Assembly: GCF_003426945.1 (NCBI RefSeq)
Contig: NZ_QURO01000004.1
Coordinates: 1,847,501 to 1,911,500, forward strand
DNA length: 64,000 nucleotides
Reading direction: 5' to 3'
From: Thermus sediminis
GTDB taxonomy: Bacteria > Deinococcota > Deinococci > Deinococcales > Thermaceae
The first letter of the stretch is position 1, and each line of letters begins with the position of its first letter. This document shows, one piece after another, positions 37,666-64,000 of this stretch. A program made the position numbers and the translations under genes. The notes beneath the pieces were generated by a model. It worked only from the letters and a program-made list of their open reading frames with translations, searched no databases and was not told the origin of the DNA.

Positions 37666-38758
37666 GGTAGGCCTCCCGGTCCGGCCAGGCGGCAAGGCAC
37701 CGCCCCTCATCAAAGTCCGTGAGGGCCACGCTCACCGCGGGCCTCTCCCCGATGTAGGCCTGGAGCCTCTCCTGGGCCAGCCGGACCAGATTCACAAAGA
37801 AGGGCTCCAACCCCTCCTCCAAGGCAAGCTCCAGGAAGCGGCGGGCGGTGGTGGCCCCTTCCGCTTCCCGCAAGGCCCTGGGGCTCGCCCCGGCCTCCCG
37901 GAGGAGCCTCTGGAGGAGGTCCCGGTTCACCTCGCCCCCGGCGGCGTGGGTCATCGTCTTCCCGTCGGCCATCTTGGAGATCTTGCCGATCATGCCCACG
38001 ATCCGCACCAGGGCGATCCCCACCTTCCTCGCCGCCTTGAGGACGTCCCCCACGAAGTCCCCCATCTCGATGAAGGCCATCTCCGGCAGGTGGGGGAGGA
38101 GCCTCTGGGCGAAGCGCTCGCTCTTGCCCCCGGTGGTGGCGGCGATCTCCAGGAGGCCGTTTGCCCGGGCCACCCCCACGGCCTGGACCACGCTCATGCG
38201 GAAGGCGCTGGTGGAGTAGGGCTTCACCACCCCTGTGGTCCCCAGGACGGAGAGCCCCCCGAGAACCCCAAGCCTGGGGTTGAGGGTCCTTTTGGCCAGC
38301 TCCTCCCCCCCGGGGATGGCGATGGTGATGGCGAGGGGTCTCGCCGTCACCTCCCGCACCGCCTCCCAGATCATGCGCCGGGGCACGGGGTTGATGGCGG
38401 GCTCCCCCACGGGAACCCCGAGGCCCGGTTTGGTCACGACCCCTACCCCCTCGCCCCCCTCCAGCCGGTCCTCGCTGGCCGGGCGCACGAAGGCCTGGAT
38501 CTCCGCCCCGTGGGTCACGTCGGGGTCGTCCCCTGCGTCTTTGATCATCCCCACCAGGACCCCGTCCCCCTTCCTCTCCAGGCGGAACACGGAAAAGGGC
38601 TGCCGCCAGCCTGCGGGGAGCCAGATGTCCACCTCCTTGGGGGCCTCCCCCAGCAGGGCCAGGGCGGCGGCCTTGGCCGCAGCGGCGGCGTTGGCCCCGG
38701 TGGTGAAGCCGATGCGGCTTCCCCTCTTGTCCCGGGGCGGGGGGTAGGGGTGGCTCAT
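37658..38758 (-). CDS. cbiD: Cobalt-precorrin-5B C1-methyltransferase CbiD
   Basis: Methylates C1 after CbiG action. The 366 residues carry the CbiD N-terminal RIGFTTGANAAAAAKAA (usually GFTTGTCA), VTKPGLGVPVGEPAINPVPR, GTTGVVKPYSTSAF and GMIGKISKMADGKTMTHAAGG. CbiD is specific to the cobalt-early route, consistent with cbiX and cbiG. Its ATG overlaps the hoxN stop by four bases. Confidence 0.96.
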   Translation of the reverse strand: MSHPYPPPRDKRGSRIGFTTGANAAAAAKAAALALLGEAPKEVDIWLPAGWRQPFSVFRLERKGDGVLVGMIKDAGDDPDVTHGAEIQAFVRPASEDRLEGGEGVGVVTKPGLGVPVGEPAINPVPRRMIWEAVREVTARPLAITIAIPGGEELAKRTLNPRLGVLGGLSVLGTTGVVKPYSTSAFRMSVVQAVGVARANGLLEIAATTGGKSERFAQRLLPHLPEMAFIEMGDFVGDVLKAARKVGIALVRIVGMIGKISKMADGKTMTHAAGGEVNRDLLQRLLREAGASPRALREAEGATTARRFLELALEEGLEPFFVNLVRLAQERLQAYIGERPAVSVALTDFDEGRCLAAWPDREAYRG

Positions 38759-39423
38759 GCCGGCCTCAACGCGTAGGCCCTAAGGCCCAGGAGGAAGAGG
38801 AAGAGGCCTAGGCCCAGGGGCAGGGCCAGGGCCTCGAGGTCCAGGGCCACGAGCTCCGCCAGGGCCAGGCCCAGGCTCAGGAAGACCACCGCCCACCCCA
38901 GGGCGCGGCTTGCCCTTTGGGCCCGCCTCGAGTCCCGGGCCAGGTTCTGCAGGCGGCTCGCCAGGAGCCCGTCCACCCCGTCCACGAGCAGCATCCCCAG
39001 GGTGAAGAGGAGGCCCAGGCGCAGGGGGGAGAGCTCGGCGGCGAGGGCCAGGGCGGAGAGCTGGCTCGCCGTCTCAAACCCCAGGCCAAAGAGGACCCCG
39101 AGGAGGAGGGGGTTGAGGAGGGGAAGGCGGGGAGGGGGGGGCTTCCCCACGGCCCCTTCCCTTAGGAGGCGGTGGAGGTTTAGCCCCGCCACCAGGAGGA
39201 GGAGAAGGGCAGGGAGGTGGAGGGCCTCCAGGTCCACCCGTTGGAGGAGGGCCGCTGCCGGGAAGGCCAGGAGGGTGACGATGGCCCCATGCCCCAGGGC
39301 GAAGAGAAGGCCCACATAGGGGGAAGGGCGCACCCGGGCCAGGCCGTCCACCGCCGCCAGGTGGTCGGGGTCTACCCCGTGGCGCATCCCCAGGGCCACG
39401 GCCAGGAGGTCTAGCCCGCTCAT
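38755..39423 (-). CDS. HoxN/NixA-type nickel/cobalt transporter
   Basis: Cobalt (or nickel) permease feeding the B12 pathway. The 222 residues contain about six to seven TM segments. The metal motif reads GMRHGVDPDHLAAVD (usually RHAVDADHI), followed by LFALGHGAIV, GLGFETASQL and GMLLVDGVDG in the expected order. It is shorter than classical NiCoT proteins. The ATG at 39423 overlaps the stop of the 20-codon leader ORF. It is the first pathway gene after the cobalamin riboswitch, so B12 should shut off cobalt uptake and the cbi genes together. Confidence 0.9.
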   Translation of the reverse strand: MSGLDLLAVALGMRHGVDPDHLAAVDGLARVRPSPYVGLLFALGHGAIVTLLAFPAAALLQRVDLEALHLPALLLLLVAGLNLHRLLREGAVGKPPPPRLPLLNPLLLGVLFGLGFETASQLSALALAAELSPLRLGLLFTLGMLLVDGVDGLLASRLQNLARDSRRAQRASRALGWAVVFLSLGLALAELVALDLEALALPLGLGLFLFLLGLRAYALRPA

Positions 39424-39482
39424 GGGGTACCTGCCTTTGGGGCTGAGAGGATAGGCTCTAACCGGAAACCGGCTCCTTTCAT
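39420..39482 (-). CDS. 20-codon leader ORF between riboswitch and transporter
   Basis: MKGAGFRLEPILSAPKAGTP, with a near-perfect ribosome site (AAAGGAGG, 6 bases before the ATG). Its TGA overlaps the transporter ATG as ATGA. The transporter has no good ribosome site of its own, so ribosomes ending this peptide may re-start on it. The riboswitch could therefore act by hiding this ribosome site. The peptide is not recognised; translation is inferred from the layout. Confidence 0.55.
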   Translation of the reverse strand: MKGAGFRLEPILSAPKAGTP

Positions 39483-39524
39483 CCTTGCCTCCTTTCGCCC
39501 CTGCTCGGGGGCAGGTGAGGCGCG

Positions 39525-39665
39525 CGCCGGGGCGGGCATTCGGGCTTCCGGCCAAGAGGCTAGGGCCTGGCGTTGGGGCCGGTTACCGTTGCGGCACAGC
39601 GCCGGACTTTCACCGGTCTTCCCCCTTTGTTGCCCCAGGGCATCCGGGCCCTGGGGCACCCCGGC
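39525..39665 (-). ncRNA. Cobalamin (AdoCbl) riboswitch of the cbi operon
   Basis: On the minus strand the core reads GGTGCCC, then AAGACCGGTGAAAGTCCGGC, GCTGTGCCGCAACGGTAA, GGCCGGAAGCCCGA and TGCCCGCC, the conserved order of the B12-box riboswitch class. After it, CCTGC/GCAGG can form a small hairpin just before the AAAGGAGG of the leader ORF, so control is probably at translation start. It directly precedes the cobalt transporter and the cbi genes. Limits of P1 are approximate. Confidence 0.93.
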
Positions 39666-58209: not shown

Positions 58210-59061
58210 TCAGCGCCCGCGTCCCTCGCTTTCGGGGGTCTGGGGCGGGGGAGGGGTTGGCCCCAGGGGCAGGCCCTTAGGGGAGGACGCCGACCGGGGG
58301 GCCTTGGGCGTGGGGAAGAGCAAGGGCGGTCCCTCCCCCCGGGCCGCGGCGGTAAAGGCCACCCCGTAGACGGGTTCCAGGACCTCGGGTCTCAGGACCG
58401 CTTCCGGCGGTCCGAAGGCCCGCGCCGTCCCCCCTTCCAGGAGGAGCACACGGTCTGCAAAGAGGCCGGCCAGGTTCAGGTCGTGCAGTACGGCCACCAC
58501 CCCCTTGCCCTCCAGGGTCAGGGCCCGGAAGAGGAGGAGGAGCTCTAGGGCATACCGCGGGTCCAGGTGGTTGGTGGGCTCGTCCAAGAGGAGGAGCCGG
58601 GGTTCCTGGCTGAGGAGCCGGGCGGCCTCCACCCGCATGGCCTCTCCTCCAGATAGGCTTGGGAAGAGGCGCTCGCCGAGGCCACGGGCCTGAGCCTGCT
58701 CCAGGGCCTCGAGGGTCTTCCGGTGGTCCTCCGGGGTCTCCCTCCCCCGGATGTGGGGGAGCCGGCCCAGGAAGGCCACCTCGTAGGCGGTGAAGGGAAA
58801 GCTCAGCTGGCGGCTTTGCGAAAGGACGGCCCGTCTGCGGGCTAGGGCCTCAGGGGTATAGGCAGGGAGGGGTTTCCCGAAGAGGCGCACCTCCCCCTCG
58901 CTGGGGGCCAGCTCCCCTGCCAGGATGCGGAGCAGGGTGGTCTTGCCGCTGCCGTTGGGCCCCAGGACCGCCAAAAACTCGCCCTCCCCCAGGGCCAGGT
59001 CCACTCTCCTCAGGATCCAGCGCCCCCCGGCCAGATAGCCGACGCCTTGGGCCTCAAGCAC
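58210..59061 (-). CDS. hmuV: Haem ABC transporter ATP-binding protein
   Basis: 283 residues. Walker A LGPNGSGKTTLLRIL, the signature LSGGEAMRVEAAR (slightly changed from LSGGEQQR), Walker B RLLLLDEPTNHLDP and the switch His (VAVLHDLNLA) are present. The FecE/HmuV-type start EAQGVGYLAGGRWILRRVDL supports haem, B12 or siderophore import. A Pro-rich tail follows the domain. The start is GTG, overlapping the permease gene by eight bases. Last gene of the haem operon. Confidence 0.88.
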   Translation of the reverse strand: MLEAQGVGYLAGGRWILRRVDLALGEGEFLAVLGPNGSGKTTLLRILAGELAPSEGEVRLFGKPLPAYTPEALARRRAVLSQSRQLSFPFTAYEVAFLGRLPHIRGRETPEDHRKTLEALEQAQARGLGERLFPSLSGGEAMRVEAARLLSQEPRLLLLDEPTNHLDPRYALELLLLFRALTLEGKGVVAVLHDLNLAGLFADRVLLLEGGTARAFGPPEAVLRPEVLEPVYGVAFTAAARGEGPPLLFPTPKAPRSASSPKGLPLGPTPPPPQTPESEGRGR

Positions 59062-60085
59062 GGTACACCTCCCGCTTGTACCGCAGGACCAGGTAGAGAA
59101 AAAAGGGACCGCCCAGGAGGGCTGTCACCACGCCTACGGGTACCTCCGCAGGGGCTGCCACGGTTCTGGCCAAGAGGTCGGCGAGGACGGCCAAGGTAGC
59201 CCCCAGGAGGGCGGCCCCCGGCAGGAGGTAGCGGTGGTCCGGCCCCGCCAGGAGGCGGAAGAGGTGGGGGGCCACCAGGCCGATAAACCCCACACCCCCC
59301 GCCAAGGCCACCGCCACACCCACCCCCAGGGCCGCCCCGGCCACGGCCCGCCGCTTGAAGGTCTCTAGCTCCGTCCCCAGGTGGAAGGCCTCCCGTTCCC
59401 CAAGGGCCAGAGCGTTGAGGGAACGGGCCAGGGGGAGGAGGAGGCCCAGGGCTAGGAAGGCCAGGGGGAGGCCTGAGAGTAGGACTGCCCAGGTGACGGC
59501 GGAGAACCCCCCGAGGGTCCAGAAGGTGAGGCTCCGGAGCTGCTCCTCTGTGGCCAGGAAGGTGAGGAGGCCGATGGCCGCCCCCACCAGGGCGTTAAGG
59601 GCGATGCCCGAAAGGAGTAGGACGAGCACCTGCGTGCCCAGGGGTGTGCGCGCGATCCGCCACAGGACCTGGGTGGCCAGAAGCCCCCCCAAGAAGGCAA
59701 AGAGGGGGAGGGCGTAGACCTCCAAGGGGCCGGCACCGGGGAGGAGAACGATAAAGATAGCCGCCCCCAGAGCGGCTCCGGAGGTAACCCCGATGAGGCC
59801 GGGGTCCACTAGGGGGTTGCGGAAGAGTCCCTGGAGCACCGCCCCGGCGAGGGCCAGCAGGCCCCCCACCAGGGCTGCTCCCAGGACCCTTGGTAGGCGG
59901 AGGACCGTGAGGACTTGGTACTCCACCCCCTCCCCGCGGAGGAGGATCTGGGGGATGGCCAAGGGGGGAAGGGGATAGGCGCCCAGGGCTAGGCCGAGGA
60001 GCAAGGCCAAGGGCAGGAGCAAGGCCAAGAAGAAAAGGGCCTTGCGGTAACGCTGAAGGTGGTGGGGTACGGTAGCTGAGGTCAT
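59054..60085 (-). CDS. hmuU: Haem ABC transporter permease (FecCD/BtuC family)
   Basis: 343 residues with about nine to ten TM segments. Conserved FecCD stretches: LRLPRVLGAALVGGLLALAGAVLQGLFRNPLVDPGLIGV, GGVGFIGLVAPHLFRLLAGPDHRYLLP and EVPVGVVTALLGGPFFLYLV. The ATG at 60085 overlaps the stop of the 30-codon ORF (ATGA). The substrate is assigned from the neighbouring haem-type genes. Confidence 0.9.
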   Translation of the reverse strand: MTSATVPHHLQRYRKALFFLALLLPLALLLGLALGAYPLPPLAIPQILLRGEGVEYQVLTVLRLPRVLGAALVGGLLALAGAVLQGLFRNPLVDPGLIGVTSGAALGAAIFIVLLPGAGPLEVYALPLFAFLGGLLATQVLWRIARTPLGTQVLVLLLSGIALNALVGAAIGLLTFLATEEQLRSLTFWTLGGFSAVTWAVLLSGLPLAFLALGLLLPLARSLNALALGEREAFHLGTELETFKRRAVAGAALGVGVAVALAGGVGFIGLVAPHLFRLLAGPDHRYLLPGAALLGATLAVLADLLARTVAAPAEVPVGVVTALLGGPFFLYLVLRYKREVYRA

Positions 60086-60174
60086 TGGATTGCCTTGAAG
60101 ACGGCTTCTAGCCCCTCGGGCGCAGGCTTGCCCAAGAGGAAGGGCAAGAGGATGCCTTTGAGGTAGGACCTCAC
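60082..60174 (-). CDS. 30-codon ORF bridging hmuT and hmuU
   Basis: MRSYLKGILLPFLLGKPAPEGLEAVFKAIQ, with GTG start. It overlaps the hmuT stop by GTGA and the hmuU start by ATGA, filling the gap exactly. The first half is hydrophobic with positive charge, the second amphipathic. The two four-base overlaps suggest it is translated, either to couple the permease or as a small membrane subunit. No known family is recognised. Confidence 0.45.
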   Translation of the reverse strand: MRSYLKGILLPFLLGKPAPEGLEAVFKAIQ

Positions 60175-61079
60175 GGTGCCACCTCCACAAATCCCTCCTG
60201 AAGGTAAGCGGCCCGGAACAGGTCTAGGGCCGCCTTGCCTGCCCTGGGGCCGAAGGAGCCCAGGTAGAGGTCGTCCATGGCCACCACCTTCCCTCTCTGC
60301 CCTGCAGGGGTTTGCGCGATCCCAGGGAGGCGAAGGAGACCCGAAAGGCCCCCAACGGAATCCAGGCCCTTCTTGAAGGTGACGATGACGTCTGGCCTCG
60401 CCGCCACCACGCTTTCTGGGGTCATAGGCCGGCACTCCCGGATTCCCTTGGCCGCGTTTTCCAAGCCTGCTAGGATCATCATGCCCACGGGCGTAGCCCC
60501 CTCCCCGCATACGAAGAGCGTCTGGGGACCCCGCATGTAGAGGAAAAGGGCTCGCAACTTGCCCTTGGGGGCCTGCTGGGCCTTGAAGGCCTCGAGGGCT
60601 AGGAGGTCCCGCTCCAACCTCCGCACGAGCTCCTCCCCCCGGGTTCCCCGGCCCACGGCCTGGGCCACCACGCGGATCTTGGCCTTGGCCCCCTGGACGG
60701 TGGGCTCGGTGGGAACCAGGACCACGCTCACCCCCGTAGCCCTGAGTTGCTCCACCACCTGGGGTGGTCGGACGTCCTCCCGGCCGATGACTAAGGTGGG
60801 TCGTAAGGAGAGGATCCCTTCGGCGGAAAGGCGGAACTGGTAGCCCACACTGGGCCGCTGGAGCACCTCCGGGGGGTAGTAGCTGGAGTCGTCCCGCCCC
60901 ACCACCTGGTCCCCAACCCCCACGGCGAAGAGGATCTCCGTGGTGATGCCGTCCAGACTGACGATGCGCTGCGTGGAAGGCACCACCACCTCCCTGCCCG
61001 TGGCGTCCACCACCCGGTAGGGTTGGGCCCAGGCCAAGGTGGCCAAGGCCGCCAAAAGTCCGAAAGCCTTGCGCTTCAT
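60171..61079 (-). CDS. hmuT: Haem ABC transporter substrate-binding protein
   Basis: 302 residues: signal peptide (MKRKAFGLLAALATLAWAQ), then VVDATGREVVVPSTQRIVSLDGITTEILFAVGVGDQVVGRDDSSYYP, the start of HmuT-type proteins. The second lobe contains RPDVIVTFKKGLDSVGG. The Tyr of YYP may help bind haem iron. The ATG at 61079 overlaps the DUF3386 stop (ATGA). No lipobox Cys is seen. Confidence 0.88.
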   Translation of the reverse strand: MKRKAFGLLAALATLAWAQPYRVVDATGREVVVPSTQRIVSLDGITTEILFAVGVGDQVVGRDDSSYYPPEVLQRPSVGYQFRLSAEGILSLRPTLVIGREDVRPPQVVEQLRATGVSVVLVPTEPTVQGAKAKIRVVAQAVGRGTRGEELVRRLERDLLALEAFKAQQAPKGKLRALFLYMRGPQTLFVCGEGATPVGMMILAGLENAAKGIRECRPMTPESVVAARPDVIVTFKKGLDSVGGLSGLLRLPGIAQTPAGQRGKVVAMDDLYLGSFGPRAGKAALDLFRAAYLQEGFVEVAP

Positions 61080-61708
61080 CCTCGCACCTCCATTTCCTCC
61101 ATACGCAGGACTAGGCTGTCTAGGCCTTCCCCCTCCGCCACCACCTCCCGCTCCCTGGGCAGCCAGTAGGGGCCCACCAAGGCGTACTCGTCCCGGTAAA
61201 CTCCCACCCGGCAAACCCGTCCCCGGAGGTCTTGGTGGACGCGGAGGAAGCGGTGGGGCAGAAGCCGCCCGTCATCGGTTTCTCTCCAAGAGAGCAGGTG
61301 GATGCGGAGGATCTCCCCATCCAGGTGCCGCTGGATGAGGGCGATGCGCCCATTCCTAACCCAAAGCTGCGAACGGAAGGGATCCTCCAGGGCGATCCGC
61401 GCCCCCAAGGGCCCCTCCTCCACAAGCCGCATGGGCCACCTTCCCTCCCCCTGGTCAAAGGGGATGGGGCGACGGTGGCCCAAGAGGGAAGCCAGTTCCC
61501 TCTCAGCCAAGGATTTGGCGTTGGCCGTGAGGTGCACCTCTGGGGCGAAGCCCCAAGCCGCCACCTCGCCCCACTGCCAGATACCCTGCCAGTGGAAGGC
61601 CAGCCTGGCCCGGAAGCCAGGGAAGTCCGGGGGAAGGGTGTAGATGCGCTCCCGGGCTTCCCTGAGGAGGGCCCAGGCGGGGGGCGCCTCCGGGGGTGGC
61701 TTAGGCAT
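61076..61708 (-). CDS. DUF3386 family protein
   Basis: 210 residues whose order of motifs matches DUF3386 from memory: LLREARERIYTLPPDFPGFRARL at the N-terminus, LASLLGHRRPIPFDQGEG in the middle, LIQRHLDGEILRIHLLSW, LLPHRFLRVHQDLRGRV and VGPYWLPREREVV. The family is known mainly from cyanobacteria and has no assigned role. Here it lies between a haem monooxygenase-like gene and hmuT, overlapping both, so a part in haem handling is likely. No signal peptide. Confidence 0.78.
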   Translation of the reverse strand: MPKPPPEAPPAWALLREARERIYTLPPDFPGFRARLAFHWQGIWQWGEVAAWGFAPEVHLTANAKSLAERELASLLGHRRPIPFDQGEGRWPMRLVEEGPLGARIALEDPFRSQLWVRNGRIALIQRHLDGEILRIHLLSWRETDDGRLLPHRFLRVHQDLRGRVCRVGVYRDEYALVGPYWLPREREVVAEGEGLDSLVLRMEEMEVRG

Positions 61709-62018
61709 CCTGCACCTCCGAGTCCAGAATGGCGGTGAAAGCCTCCAGCCGGCTGGGCCCGAGGAAGGCCTCCTTGGGGAGGGTGCCCCTGGCGTGCCCC
61801 TCGCGGAAGGCGGGGCTTTGGGTCCAGGCCAGGAAGGCGGCCTCGCTCTCCCAGAAGGTCAGGACGATGTAGGGGTCCCCGGGGTCCTTGGGCCTAAGGA
61901 CCAGGTTGCGCAGGAACCCCGGCGCCTGGTCCACCAGGCGGGCCCTTTGGCGGAAGGCCTCCTCAAAGCTCTCCCGGTACTCCGGCCTGACGGGGATGCG
62001 GTTCATGGTCACGAACAC
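61701..62018 (-). CDS. ABM-family monooxygenase, haem-degrading type (copy 2)
   Basis: 105 residues, nearly identical to the gene at 45286; the two differ mainly in the last 12 residues. As the first gene of the hmu operon it is well placed to open haem brought in by HmuTUV and free iron. The GTG start has AGGAGGTGAGG before it. This copy has its own strong promoter, the other does not, so this is probably the parent. Confidence 0.87.
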   Translation of the reverse strand: MFVTMNRIPVRPEYRESFEEAFRQRARLVDQAPGFLRNLVLRPKDPGDPYIVLTFWESEAAFLAWTQSPAFREGHARGTLPKEAFLGPSRLEAFTAILDSEVQDA

Positions 62019-62227: not shown

Positions 62228-62257
62228 TTGACAGGTGGCCCCAAGGGGTTGTAGCCT
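62228..62257 (+). promoter_or_regulatory. Promoter of the riboswitch/nrd transcript
   Basis: TTGACA (62228-62233), an 18-base spacer and TAGCCT (62252-62257). Transcription would start near 62264, just before the cobalamin riboswitch. Confidence 0.55.
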
Positions 62258-62269
62258 CACCCCCAGGAC

Positions 62270-62412
62270 GCCCAAGACCTGGGGTGTCCTGGCCGCGGGG
62301 CCAGGCCGACAGGCCTGGACGCCTCTGGCGGCGGGGGAAGTCCGGTGAGAGTCCGGCGCTGTCCCGCAACGGTAACCGGCCCCAGGCCGGAAGCCCGAGT
62401 ACCCGCCTCGCG
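62270..62412 (+). ncRNA. Cobalamin (AdoCbl) riboswitch upstream of the nrd operon
   Basis: The conserved core AAGTCCGGTGAGAGTCCGGC, GCTGTCCCGCAACGGTAA, then GGCCGGAAGCCCGAGTACCCGCC is almost the same as in the copy at 39.5 kb. Downstream, AGGCC/GGCCT (62498-62510) closes a short hairpin followed by TTGGCTT, and the ribosome site AAGGAGG lies at 62539-62545; either could be the switch. The genes after it are a thioesterase, nrdB and nrdA. Outer limits are approximate. Confidence 0.93.
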
Positions 62413-62550
62413 GTCCTGCCCCGTAGCCCTCGAGGCAAGGGTGAAGGTGGTGATGCCTGTGGGACCTTAGGACCAAGCTTCCCCAACAAGCGGCGTTAGG
62501 CCTTCGGCCTTTGGCTTAGGAGAGGCGCTTTGCCCCTTAAGGAGGTTTGT

Positions 62551-62943
62551 GTGCGGGAAACGCGCATGGTCTACCCCGTATTCCCTGGGGAGACCAACCA
62601 CTACGGAACGCTCTTCGGCGGCACGGTCCTGGCCTGGATGGACCAGGCGGCCTTCGTGGCCGCTACCCGCCACGCCAAGAGGAAGGTGGTGACGGTGCAC
62701 GCGGACGCAGTGGACTTCAAGCGCCCTGTCCCCCTAGGCTCCATCGTGGAGCTGGTGGCCCGGGTGGTGGGGGTGGGGCGCACCTCCATGCGGGTGGAGG
62801 TGGAGATGTGGGTGGAGCCGGTCTCCGAGAGGGAGGCTTCCTATTTGGCGGCCAAGGGGGGTTTCGTCCTCGTAGCCCTGGACGAGGCGGGAAGACCTGC
62901 CCCGGTGCCGCCCCTGGAGGTGGGGGATGCTCACGGAGCCTAG
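62551..62943 (+). CDS. Hotdog-fold acyl-CoA thioesterase (YciA-like)
   Basis: 130 residues. The hotdog motif HYGTLFGGTVLAWMDQAAFVAATRHAKRKVVTVHADAVDF is the acyl-CoA thioesterase pattern with the catalytic Asp in WMDQAA. GTG 62551 is chosen because AAGGAGG lies 5 bases upstream; a TTG at 62530 is possible. It overlaps nrdB by 17 bases. Why it is transcribed behind a B12 riboswitch with ribonucleotide reductase genes is unclear. Confidence 0.85.
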   Translation: MRETRMVYPVFPGETNHYGTLFGGTVLAWMDQAAFVAATRHAKRKVVTVHADAVDFKRPVPLGSIVELVARVVGVGRTSMRVEVEMWVEPVSEREASYLAAKGGFVLVALDEAGRPAPVPPLEVGDAHGA

Positions 62944-63898
62944 GCGGGCCTACCGCCCTTACGAGTACCCGGGGCTTCTGCGCTTCCGGGACGCCATCCG
63001 CCACAGCTACTGGGTCCACACCGAGTTCAGCTACAGCGCCGATGTCCAGGACTACGCCCTCTCCGATCCCCCGGTGCGGGGCCTGGTGGAGCGCTCCCTC
63101 CTCGCCATCGCCCAGGTGGAGCTCTCTGTGAAGCTCTTCTGGGCCCGCCTGTACGAGCGCTTCCCCAAGCCCGAGGTGGCCGAGGTGGGCATGACCTTCG
63201 CCGAGAGCGAGGTGCGCCACGCCAACGCCTACGCCCACCTCTTGGACCTCCTGGGCCTGGGGGATCTGTTCAGCCGGTACCTGGAAGAGGCTCCTCCCCT
63301 AAGGGAACGGGCGGGGGCCCTGGAGGGGGTCCTGGCCCGTTCCAGGAACGCCTCCCTAGGGGAGTACGCCCTTTCCCTCCTCCTCTTCTCCGCCTTCGTG
63401 GAGCACATCTCCCTCTTCTCCCAGTTCTACGCCCTTATGGCCCTAAACCGCCGCGGCAACCGCTTCAAGGGCATCGCCAACGCGGTGGAGGCCACCAGCA
63501 AAGAGGAGAACATCCACGGGCTTTTCGGGGTAGAGCTCCTCCGCCTCCTCAAGGAGGAGCGGCCCGAGGTCTTCGGGGAGGGGTTTGCCGAGGAGGCCCT
63601 CCGGGCAGCAGAAGGGCTTTTTCGCGCCGAAGAGGCCCTTTTGGACTGGATCTTCGCCAGGGGGGATGTGCCTTGGGTTCGGGGGGAGGAGGTTTTGGAG
63701 TTCGTCAAGGACCGGTACAACCAGGTTCTGGCCCTCCACGGGCTTCCCCCGCCCTTCCGGGTGCGCCAGGACCTCCTGCGGGACGTGGAGTGGTTTGCCC
63801 TGGAACTTCTTTCGGACAAAGACGTGGACTTCTTCAACAAGCGCAGTGTGGCCTACGCCAGGAGGGTGAAGGCCTTTGATCCCGAAGAGCTCTTCTAG
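62927..63898 (+). CDS. nrdB: Ribonucleotide reductase beta subunit (class I)
   Basis: Holds the metal centre and tyrosyl radical for B12-independent deoxynucleotide synthesis. The 323 residues carry the metal ligands E in QVELSVKLFWARLYE, ExxH in ESEVRHANAYAHLL and, in the second half, E in AFVEHISLFSQF and EEN-IH in EATSKEENIHGL. The Tyr in HANAY is at the usual radical position. It starts inside the thioesterase gene. nrdA follows ten bases after the stop. The operon is under a cobalamin riboswitch. Confidence 0.95.
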   Translation: MLTEPRRAYRPYEYPGLLRFRDAIRHSYWVHTEFSYSADVQDYALSDPPVRGLVERSLLAIAQVELSVKLFWARLYERFPKPEVAEVGMTFAESEVRHANAYAHLLDLLGLGDLFSRYLEEAPPLRERAGALEGVLARSRNASLGEYALSLLLFSAFVEHISLFSQFYALMALNRRGNRFKGIANAVEATSKEENIHGLFGVELLRLLKEERPEVFGEGFAEEALRAAEGLFRAEEALLDWIFARGDVPWVRGEEVLEFVKDRYNQVLALHGLPPPFRVRQDLLRDVEWFALELLSDKDVDFFNKRSVAYARRVKAFDPEELF

Positions 63899-63908
63899 GA
63901 GGAATCCA

Positions 63909-64000
63909 TGAAAGCTACCTTGCGCAAAGGGTACGAACCCTGGTACTGGGCCAACGAGCACACCCGGGTCTACATGGCCCGGGGTTACCTCCTCCCCGGG
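63909..64000 (+). CDS. nrdA: Ribonucleotide reductase alpha subunit (partial start)
   Basis: Only the first 30 codons are in the window: MKATLRKGYEPWYWANEHTR then VYMARGYLLPG, resembling the start of class I NrdA, where a long helix ends in GYLLPG. AGGAGGAATCC lies before the ATG. Its position directly after nrdB supports the assignment. Confidence 0.75.

Follow-up and report, generated by a model that had tools for sequence, protein, structure and literature searches.

A cobalamin riboswitch precedes a hotdog thioesterase and a class Id ribonucleotide reductase in a predicted B12-shortage operon of Thermus

In a Thermus-like bacterium, a cobalamin riboswitch is followed by a gene for a hotdog acyl-CoA thioesterase (hereafter TE) and by nrdB and nrdA, which code for a ribonucleotide reductase (RNR) that its residues place in class Id. 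We read this arrangement, with a probability of roughly 0.72, as an operon that would be used when vitamin B12 is in short supply. The reductase part of this reading applies textbook logic to a setting that is new, namely a class Id enzyme in Thermus. The new point is that no other protein accompanies the riboswitch as constantly as TE, which stays in place while the reductase is exchanged and occurs also where there is no reductase.

The window is the whole stretch of DNA analyzed, 64,000 nucleotides from genome G000 (2.16 Mb, Thermus-like; C4:1847501-1911500). Positions beyond its end are given in locus L004, where window position equals L004 position + 58500. The features of the operon and its leader are as follows.

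62228 to 62257, + strand: promoter-like element (TTGACA at 62228-62233, 18-base spacer, TAGCCT at 62252-62257)
62266 to 62289, + strand: leader hairpin 5' of the aptamer (GGACGCCC / GGGTGTCC, 8-base loop)
62309 to 62452, + strand: cobalamin (AdoCbl) riboswitch aptamer, Rfam RF01482
62453 to 62550, + strand: expression platform, including the Shine-Dalgarno sequence AGGAGG at 62540-62545
62551 to 62943, + strand: hotdog acyl-CoA thioesterase (TE), 130 aa, GTG start at 62551 behind AGGAGG, Pfam 4HBT
62927 to 63898, + strand: nrdB, class Id (NrdBi) radical-generating subunit, 323 aa, PF00268 E 1.1e-39
63908 to 64000 and past the window end, + strand: nrdA, class Id catalytic subunit, 560 aa, complete in G000:C4:1911408-1913090 (L004 5408-7090)

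The riboswitch leader and the thioesterase gene

A preliminary description of this DNA had named a B12 riboswitch core with a promoter before it and a hotdog thioesterase gene first after it, and each of these elements is borne out. The AdoCbl model RF01482, whose gathering score is 50, matches 62309-62452 on the + strand with 52.5 bits (E 9.3e-7 in 64 kb), and RF00174 gives 35.7 bits on the same leader against a threshold of 31.5. The riboswitch core is nearly invariant across 23 distinct Thermus leaders. The element in front of it is best called promoter-like: a sigma-70 consensus scan did not report the TTGACA/TAGCCT pair before the riboswitch, though TTGAC and TAGnnT recur at the equivalent place of the alignment in several Thermus leaders. 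Between promoter-like element and aptamer lies a hairpin whose 8 pairs all persist in every distinct Thermus leader that extends over it (18/18), with pair-keeping exchanges of A-T to G-C and among C-G, T-G and T-A.

The expression platform contains neither an intrinsic terminator nor a run of four or more U residues between 62453 and 62550, which leaves translation control or Rho as the means of regulation. Nor does the platform show a clear conserved hairpin that would sequester the ribosome site; over the 60 bases directly upstream of the start the mean z is -0.5.

TE matches Pfam 4HBT (PF03061) with 79.9 bits against a gathering score of 20.6 (E 1.7e-22). The open-reading-frame list places its start at 62530, which is less likely than the GTG at 62551 because the ribosome-binding site would then fall inside the frame. 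Against the YciA equivalog model (NF007970) TE scores 70.2 bits where the curated cut-off is 162, and we therefore treat it as a relative that is not to be filed as YciA. The best solved relative is 2EIS (E 9.6e-73), the structure of TTHB207 of T. thermophilus HB8; this ortholog, encoded on pTT27, likewise lies between a cobalamin riboswitch and nrdBA, and a search of freely available papers found no functional study of it. A second thioesterase, 45-50% identical to TE, is encoded elsewhere in Thermaceae genomes.

A whole-genome search of G000 found three cobalamin riboswitches, of which the one described above is the first. The second, at window positions 39526-39665 on the - strand (36.3 bits), precedes a gene for a cobalt/nickel-transporter-like membrane protein (38755-39555), and the genes after it look by eye like cobalamin biosynthesis genes (cbiD-like, cobH/cbiC-like and cbiE/T-like). 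The third, at C4:139929-140087, is upstream of a BtuF/C/D-like operon.

Residues of the reductase point to class Id

The preliminary description had likened the reductase genes to Streptomyces nrdABS, which are of the Ia kind and under a B12 riboswitch. A class I nrdBA does stand behind the riboswitch, as it claimed; the subclass is Id by residues, and not Ia. NrdA matches TIGR02510 (NrdE-prime) over its full length with 938.8 bits against a cut-off of 602, is short (560 aa) and without an ATP-cone, and has 6DQX and 6DQW as its closest solved structures. Those closest to NrdB are 8DQ3, 6SF4, 5OLK and 6CWO, the last three of which are the dimanganese class Id proteins of Facklamia, Leeuwenhoekiella and Flavobacterium, respectively.

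Two published sets of residues define the class. One is a Tyr/Glu pairing at the metal site, with Glu replacing the Asp of classes Ia and Ib (PMC8463856), and the other is a conserved Trp with a Lys three residues before it and a Thr that holds the Tyr (PMC6754362). The first corresponds to E65 and Y102 of NrdB and the second to K69, W72 and T190, and these residues, together with E95, H98, E159, E194 and H197, are conserved at all 34 loci (34/34). On this evidence the enzyme is of class Id, the dimanganese type, and would carry an Mn2(IV,III) cofactor. The ortholog of this reductase was labeled class Ia in the T. aquaticus genome paper, a label that should be revised because the class Id residues are present.

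The class Id enzymes of Flavobacterium johnsoniae, Facklamia ignava and Leeuwenhoekiella blandensis (PMC6754362, PMC8463856) share with the enzyme described here both the NrdB signature (the Glu ligand, the Tyr, the Thr, and the Lys that precedes Trp by three residues) and a short NrdA without an ATP-cone. The NrdB encoded in the window differs from theirs in carrying no ATP-cone or glutaredoxin domain. In genome G041, nrdA (L027 6246-7324) contains an in-frame insert of ~1.1 kb that is probably an intein.

The remainder of the operon and the other B12 enzymes

The gene order TE-nrdB-nrdA given earlier holds for all three genes, and the operon is longer than was described. Past nrdA follow cobS, cobO (which codes for cob(I)yrinic acid adenosyltransferase), a protoglobin gene and cobB, all closely spaced and on the same strand (L004). 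The preliminary description was also right that B12 synthesis genes lie nearby. The protoglobin gene occupies L004 8425-9024, between cobO and cobB, and a TPP riboswitch at L004 10393 opens a thiamine gene cluster after cobB. This cob continuation is peculiar to G000; in other Thermus the cob genes are elsewhere or divergent.

The preliminary description had proposed a genome search for a class II nrdJ, and such a gene is present in G000 at L050 4844-8986 (G000:C4:902843-906985). Its product of 1381 aa matches TIGR02504 with 622 bits against a cut-off of 400, and the match is broken by an intein-like insert that holds a LAGLIDADG domain. In other Thermus the NrdJ frames are 1374-2325 aa long, and inserts of varied size are likely. 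NrdJ-type matches were found in all 50 Thermaceae genomes (50/50). About 20 other Thermus genomes, and G041 at L051 4810-6573, encode a third protein of reductase type, which is ~589 aa long, has a complete barrel domain and is absent from G000.

Because NrdJ is encoded in the same genome as the riboswitch and nrdBA, the arrangement fits the logic by which B12 represses a B12-free isozyme. Very probably, AdoCbl lowers expression of the operon. When plentiful, adenosylcobalamin would bind the leader RNA and turn the operon down, and NrdJ would supply the dNTPs. Under scarcity of the cofactor, the leader would become permissive and the manganese enzyme NrdBA would replace NrdJ, with the downstream cobS, cobO and cobB helping to restore the cofactor during the shortage.

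MetH, recognized by its B12-binding domain, is likewise present in 50/50 Thermaceae, the one weak case being an incomplete genome. The gene metE, which codes for the cobalamin-independent methionine synthase and is B12-riboswitch-controlled, follows the same isozyme-replacement logic. It occurs in 16 of the 50 Thermaceae, mostly within the riboswitch-TE-RNR module, and in 9 other Thermus genomes an intact copy lies in the same operon, between TE and nrdB. A search of G000 found no metE, either in the operon or elsewhere in the genome. Since MetH is kept and metE is lacking, the window's organism stays B12-dependent for methionine, and the operon cannot make the cell B12-independent. Remnants of metE lie between TE and nrdB at L026 3829-4384 and L080 7408-7539, which suggests that some lineages are losing the gene.

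Reports of B12-free reductases under B12 control go back to the early 2000s and include nrdDG of Desulfovibrio and Desulfuromonas (PMC545781). In those cases, as in Streptomyces, a cobalamin riboswitch stands before the B12-free isozyme and NrdJ is encoded elsewhere in the genome, as in Thermus. The Thermus case differs in that the isozyme is of class Id, a thioesterase comes first and, in G000, cob genes come after.

A divergent operon at window positions 58210-62018 (- strand) codes for an ABM-domain (HmuQ-like) protein, a DUF3386 protein, a substrate-binding protein, a permease and an ATPase. We considered its ABC transporter as a B12 importer and rejected this assignment on account of the neighbor that resembles the heme-degrading HmuQ; the operon probably serves heme uptake and use. 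A heme-type operon also adjoins the module on T. aquaticus pTA78, and the T. aquaticus genome paper names the same cluster heme transport.

Conservation of the unit across Deinococcota

Among the loci of Thermus and its sister genus that have the upstream region present, all 27 (27/27) carry a riboswitch 221-293 bases before TE, followed by nrdB and nrdA. Named examples are T. thermophilus HB8 pTT27, T. aquaticus pTA78 and T. oshimai pTHEOS01. Two diverged copies of riboswitch-TE-nrdBA are found in each of four Thermus genomes (L020 and L033, L014 and L031, L017 and L032, L024 and L038). One copy of the module is nearly identical in G024, G028, G043, G046 and G047, which suggests recent spread with a plasmid as a possible carrier.

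Farther away, the partner reductase changes. The Meiothermus group has a cobalamin riboswitch, a class Ib nrdI-nrdE-nrdF set and TE, with metE in some members. On D. radiodurans pMP1 a riboswitch-like element precedes TE, nrdI, nrdE, nrdF and a thioredoxin gene, again class Ib; the element is of the AdoCbl-II type and scores 25.2 bits, below threshold (L062 6630-6860). Behind the element come GTGCCCAGCTGTGGGCAC and a T-rich stretch that together resemble a terminator, and this class Ib reductase may thus be under a B12 switch acting on transcription. In two more families of the order, a riboswitch-like core and TE are followed by an NrdE_NrdA (Ia-like) reductase (L144, L146), and one has class Id genes (L145). 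TE is first in Thermus and Deinococcus and last in the Meiothermus group. By gene order, the riboswitch-TE-RNR unit is kept across Deinococcota while the reductase type varies among Id, Ib and Ia-like.

Of 50 Thermaceae genomes, 43 have a class I RNR, and 42 of these encode TE; the other 7 genomes all lack TE. The corresponding Fisher p of 8e-8 overstates the association, because the genes are linked and the genomes related.

The thioesterase behind riboswitches in other phyla

With TE as the sole query against one genome per species, 80 loci were obtained, which were thus chosen regardless of any riboswitch; the cobalamin riboswitches named next were confirmed with Rfam. In Chloroflexota, two loci (L064, L067) have one before TE, both with metE. 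In Rhodothermota, a riboswitch of 46 bits precedes TE and then only a DUF4286 gene (L065), and another cobalamin riboswitch is followed by TE and class Id nrdBA (L122). Bacteroidota provide a riboswitch of 106 bits before TE alone (L091) and a cobalamin riboswitch before TE with an nrdA-type gene and metE (L141). Bdellovibrionota provide a riboswitch of 60 bits before TE alone (L101), and in Lysobacter a cobalamin riboswitch precedes TE with nrdAB (L073). In Bacteroidota and Bdellovibrionota, the taxa with TE directly behind its own riboswitch and no nrd genes are Chitinophaga and a Bdellovibrionales MAG. A Bipolaricaulota MAG (L089) was not counted as a further phylum; its module, with TE 84% and NrdA 82% identical to those of the window, probably lies on a misbinned Thermus contig.

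Mapped on a tree of TE sequences, the riboswitch label changes 6 times at the least, whereas shuffled labels need 38 changes on average. L091, L101 and L073 fall outside the main riboswitch clade, and their placement suggests separate recruitments, although the tree was built on 122 columns and has long branches.

The preliminary description saw no clear reason for B12 control of the thioesterase, a view that these comparisons do not support: in Deinococcota the riboswitch has no steadier partner than TE, which also recurs behind cobalamin riboswitches in other phyla, sometimes alone. Its recurrence as a B12-controlled gene in several phyla indicates a role in coping with B12 shortage, and we consider it probable, by about three chances in four, that TE is a working member of this response. 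The alternative is that TE is a passenger with no such role, held between riboswitch and nrd genes by history and perhaps aiding translational coupling into nrdB. The 17-base overlap of TE and nrdB in the window would suit coupling, and most loci come from one phylum and share ancestry. Nevertheless, a passenger would not be expected to change position and outlast the replacement of the reductase, to stand alone behind strong riboswitches (L091, L101) or to accompany metE (L064, L067, L141), and we regard this alternative as unlikely.

A proposed role for the thioesterase

The main uses of B12 are in NrdJ, in MetH and in AdoCbl-dependent acyl-CoA mutases, the third widespread class of B12 enzymes. 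The genes beside TE replace NrdJ and MetH, and a thioesterase that releases CoA would fit the third class. We therefore propose, tentatively and at a little under even odds, that TE hydrolyses short-chain acyl-CoAs that pile up when these mutases, of the methylmalonyl-CoA or isobutyryl-CoA type, lack their cofactor, thereby freeing CoA. The operon would then answer three uses of B12, with a class I RNR for NrdJ, MetE (where present) for MetH and TE as relief for a stalled mutase.

The distribution of the mutases is compatible with this proposal and is confounded by ancestry. Acyl-CoA mutase (PF01642) is present in 50/50 Thermaceae and in 13/13 tested genomes elsewhere with a riboswitch-linked TE (counting L090, whose riboswitch was not seen), and in 0/18 gammaproteobacteria with a TE relative and no visible riboswitch. 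On independent pairs, the association of mutase with riboswitch-TE is not significant (1 for, 0 against, 2 without difference). Two Chloroflexota (L066, L071) have TE and mutase with no visible riboswitch at TE. Because mutases are universal in Thermaceae, the absence of TE from 8 genomes is not explained by a missing mutase.

Instead of serving as a general relief valve, TE could take part in a B12-independent propionate bypass, for example as the hydrolase for 3-hydroxypropionyl-CoA in a shunt that resembles beta-oxidation. Such a shunt is documented in an animal, C. elegans, which switches it on at low B12 (PMC4951191), and TE belongs to a CoA-thioesterase family; no other shunt gene was seen in the TE operons, however, and this role seems improbable. 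The C. elegans shunt relieves a block at methylmalonyl-CoA mutase by the logic proposed here for TE, but it operates in an animal, under transcriptional control and with several enzymes, and only the logic is comparable (PMC4951191). That the riboswitch mainly governs TE and the cob genes, with nrdBA on its own constitutive promoter inside TE, is very improbable: cobS, cobO and cobB do follow nrdA in G000, but only there, whereas riboswitch-TE-nrdBA is conserved, TE and nrdB overlap, and no promoter-like site was found between riboswitch and nrdA.

Implications for B12 regulons

Our search of freely available papers found neither a thioesterase described as part of a B12 regulon nor a class Id reductase described under a riboswitch, and nothing relevant on a thioesterase with methylmalonyl-CoA, B12 and riboswitch. 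The thioesterase therefore appears to be new as a member of B12 regulons. A broader possibility, to which we also give somewhat less than an even chance, is that this family of hotdog acyl-CoA thioesterases has gone unrecognized as a part of the bacterial regulons for B12 shortage, in which it would be a third arm next to MetE and the B12-free RNRs. Its members would have come under riboswitch control more than once (in Deinococcota, Chloroflexota, Bacteroidota/Rhodothermota, Bdellovibrionota and Lysobacter), and would relieve CoA trapping at stalled mutases. The predicted situation would be a bacterial counterpart of the methylmalonate problem in human B12 deficiency. This prediction can be tested in model strains such as T. 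thermophilus HB8, for whose thioesterase TTHB207 a crystal structure is available.
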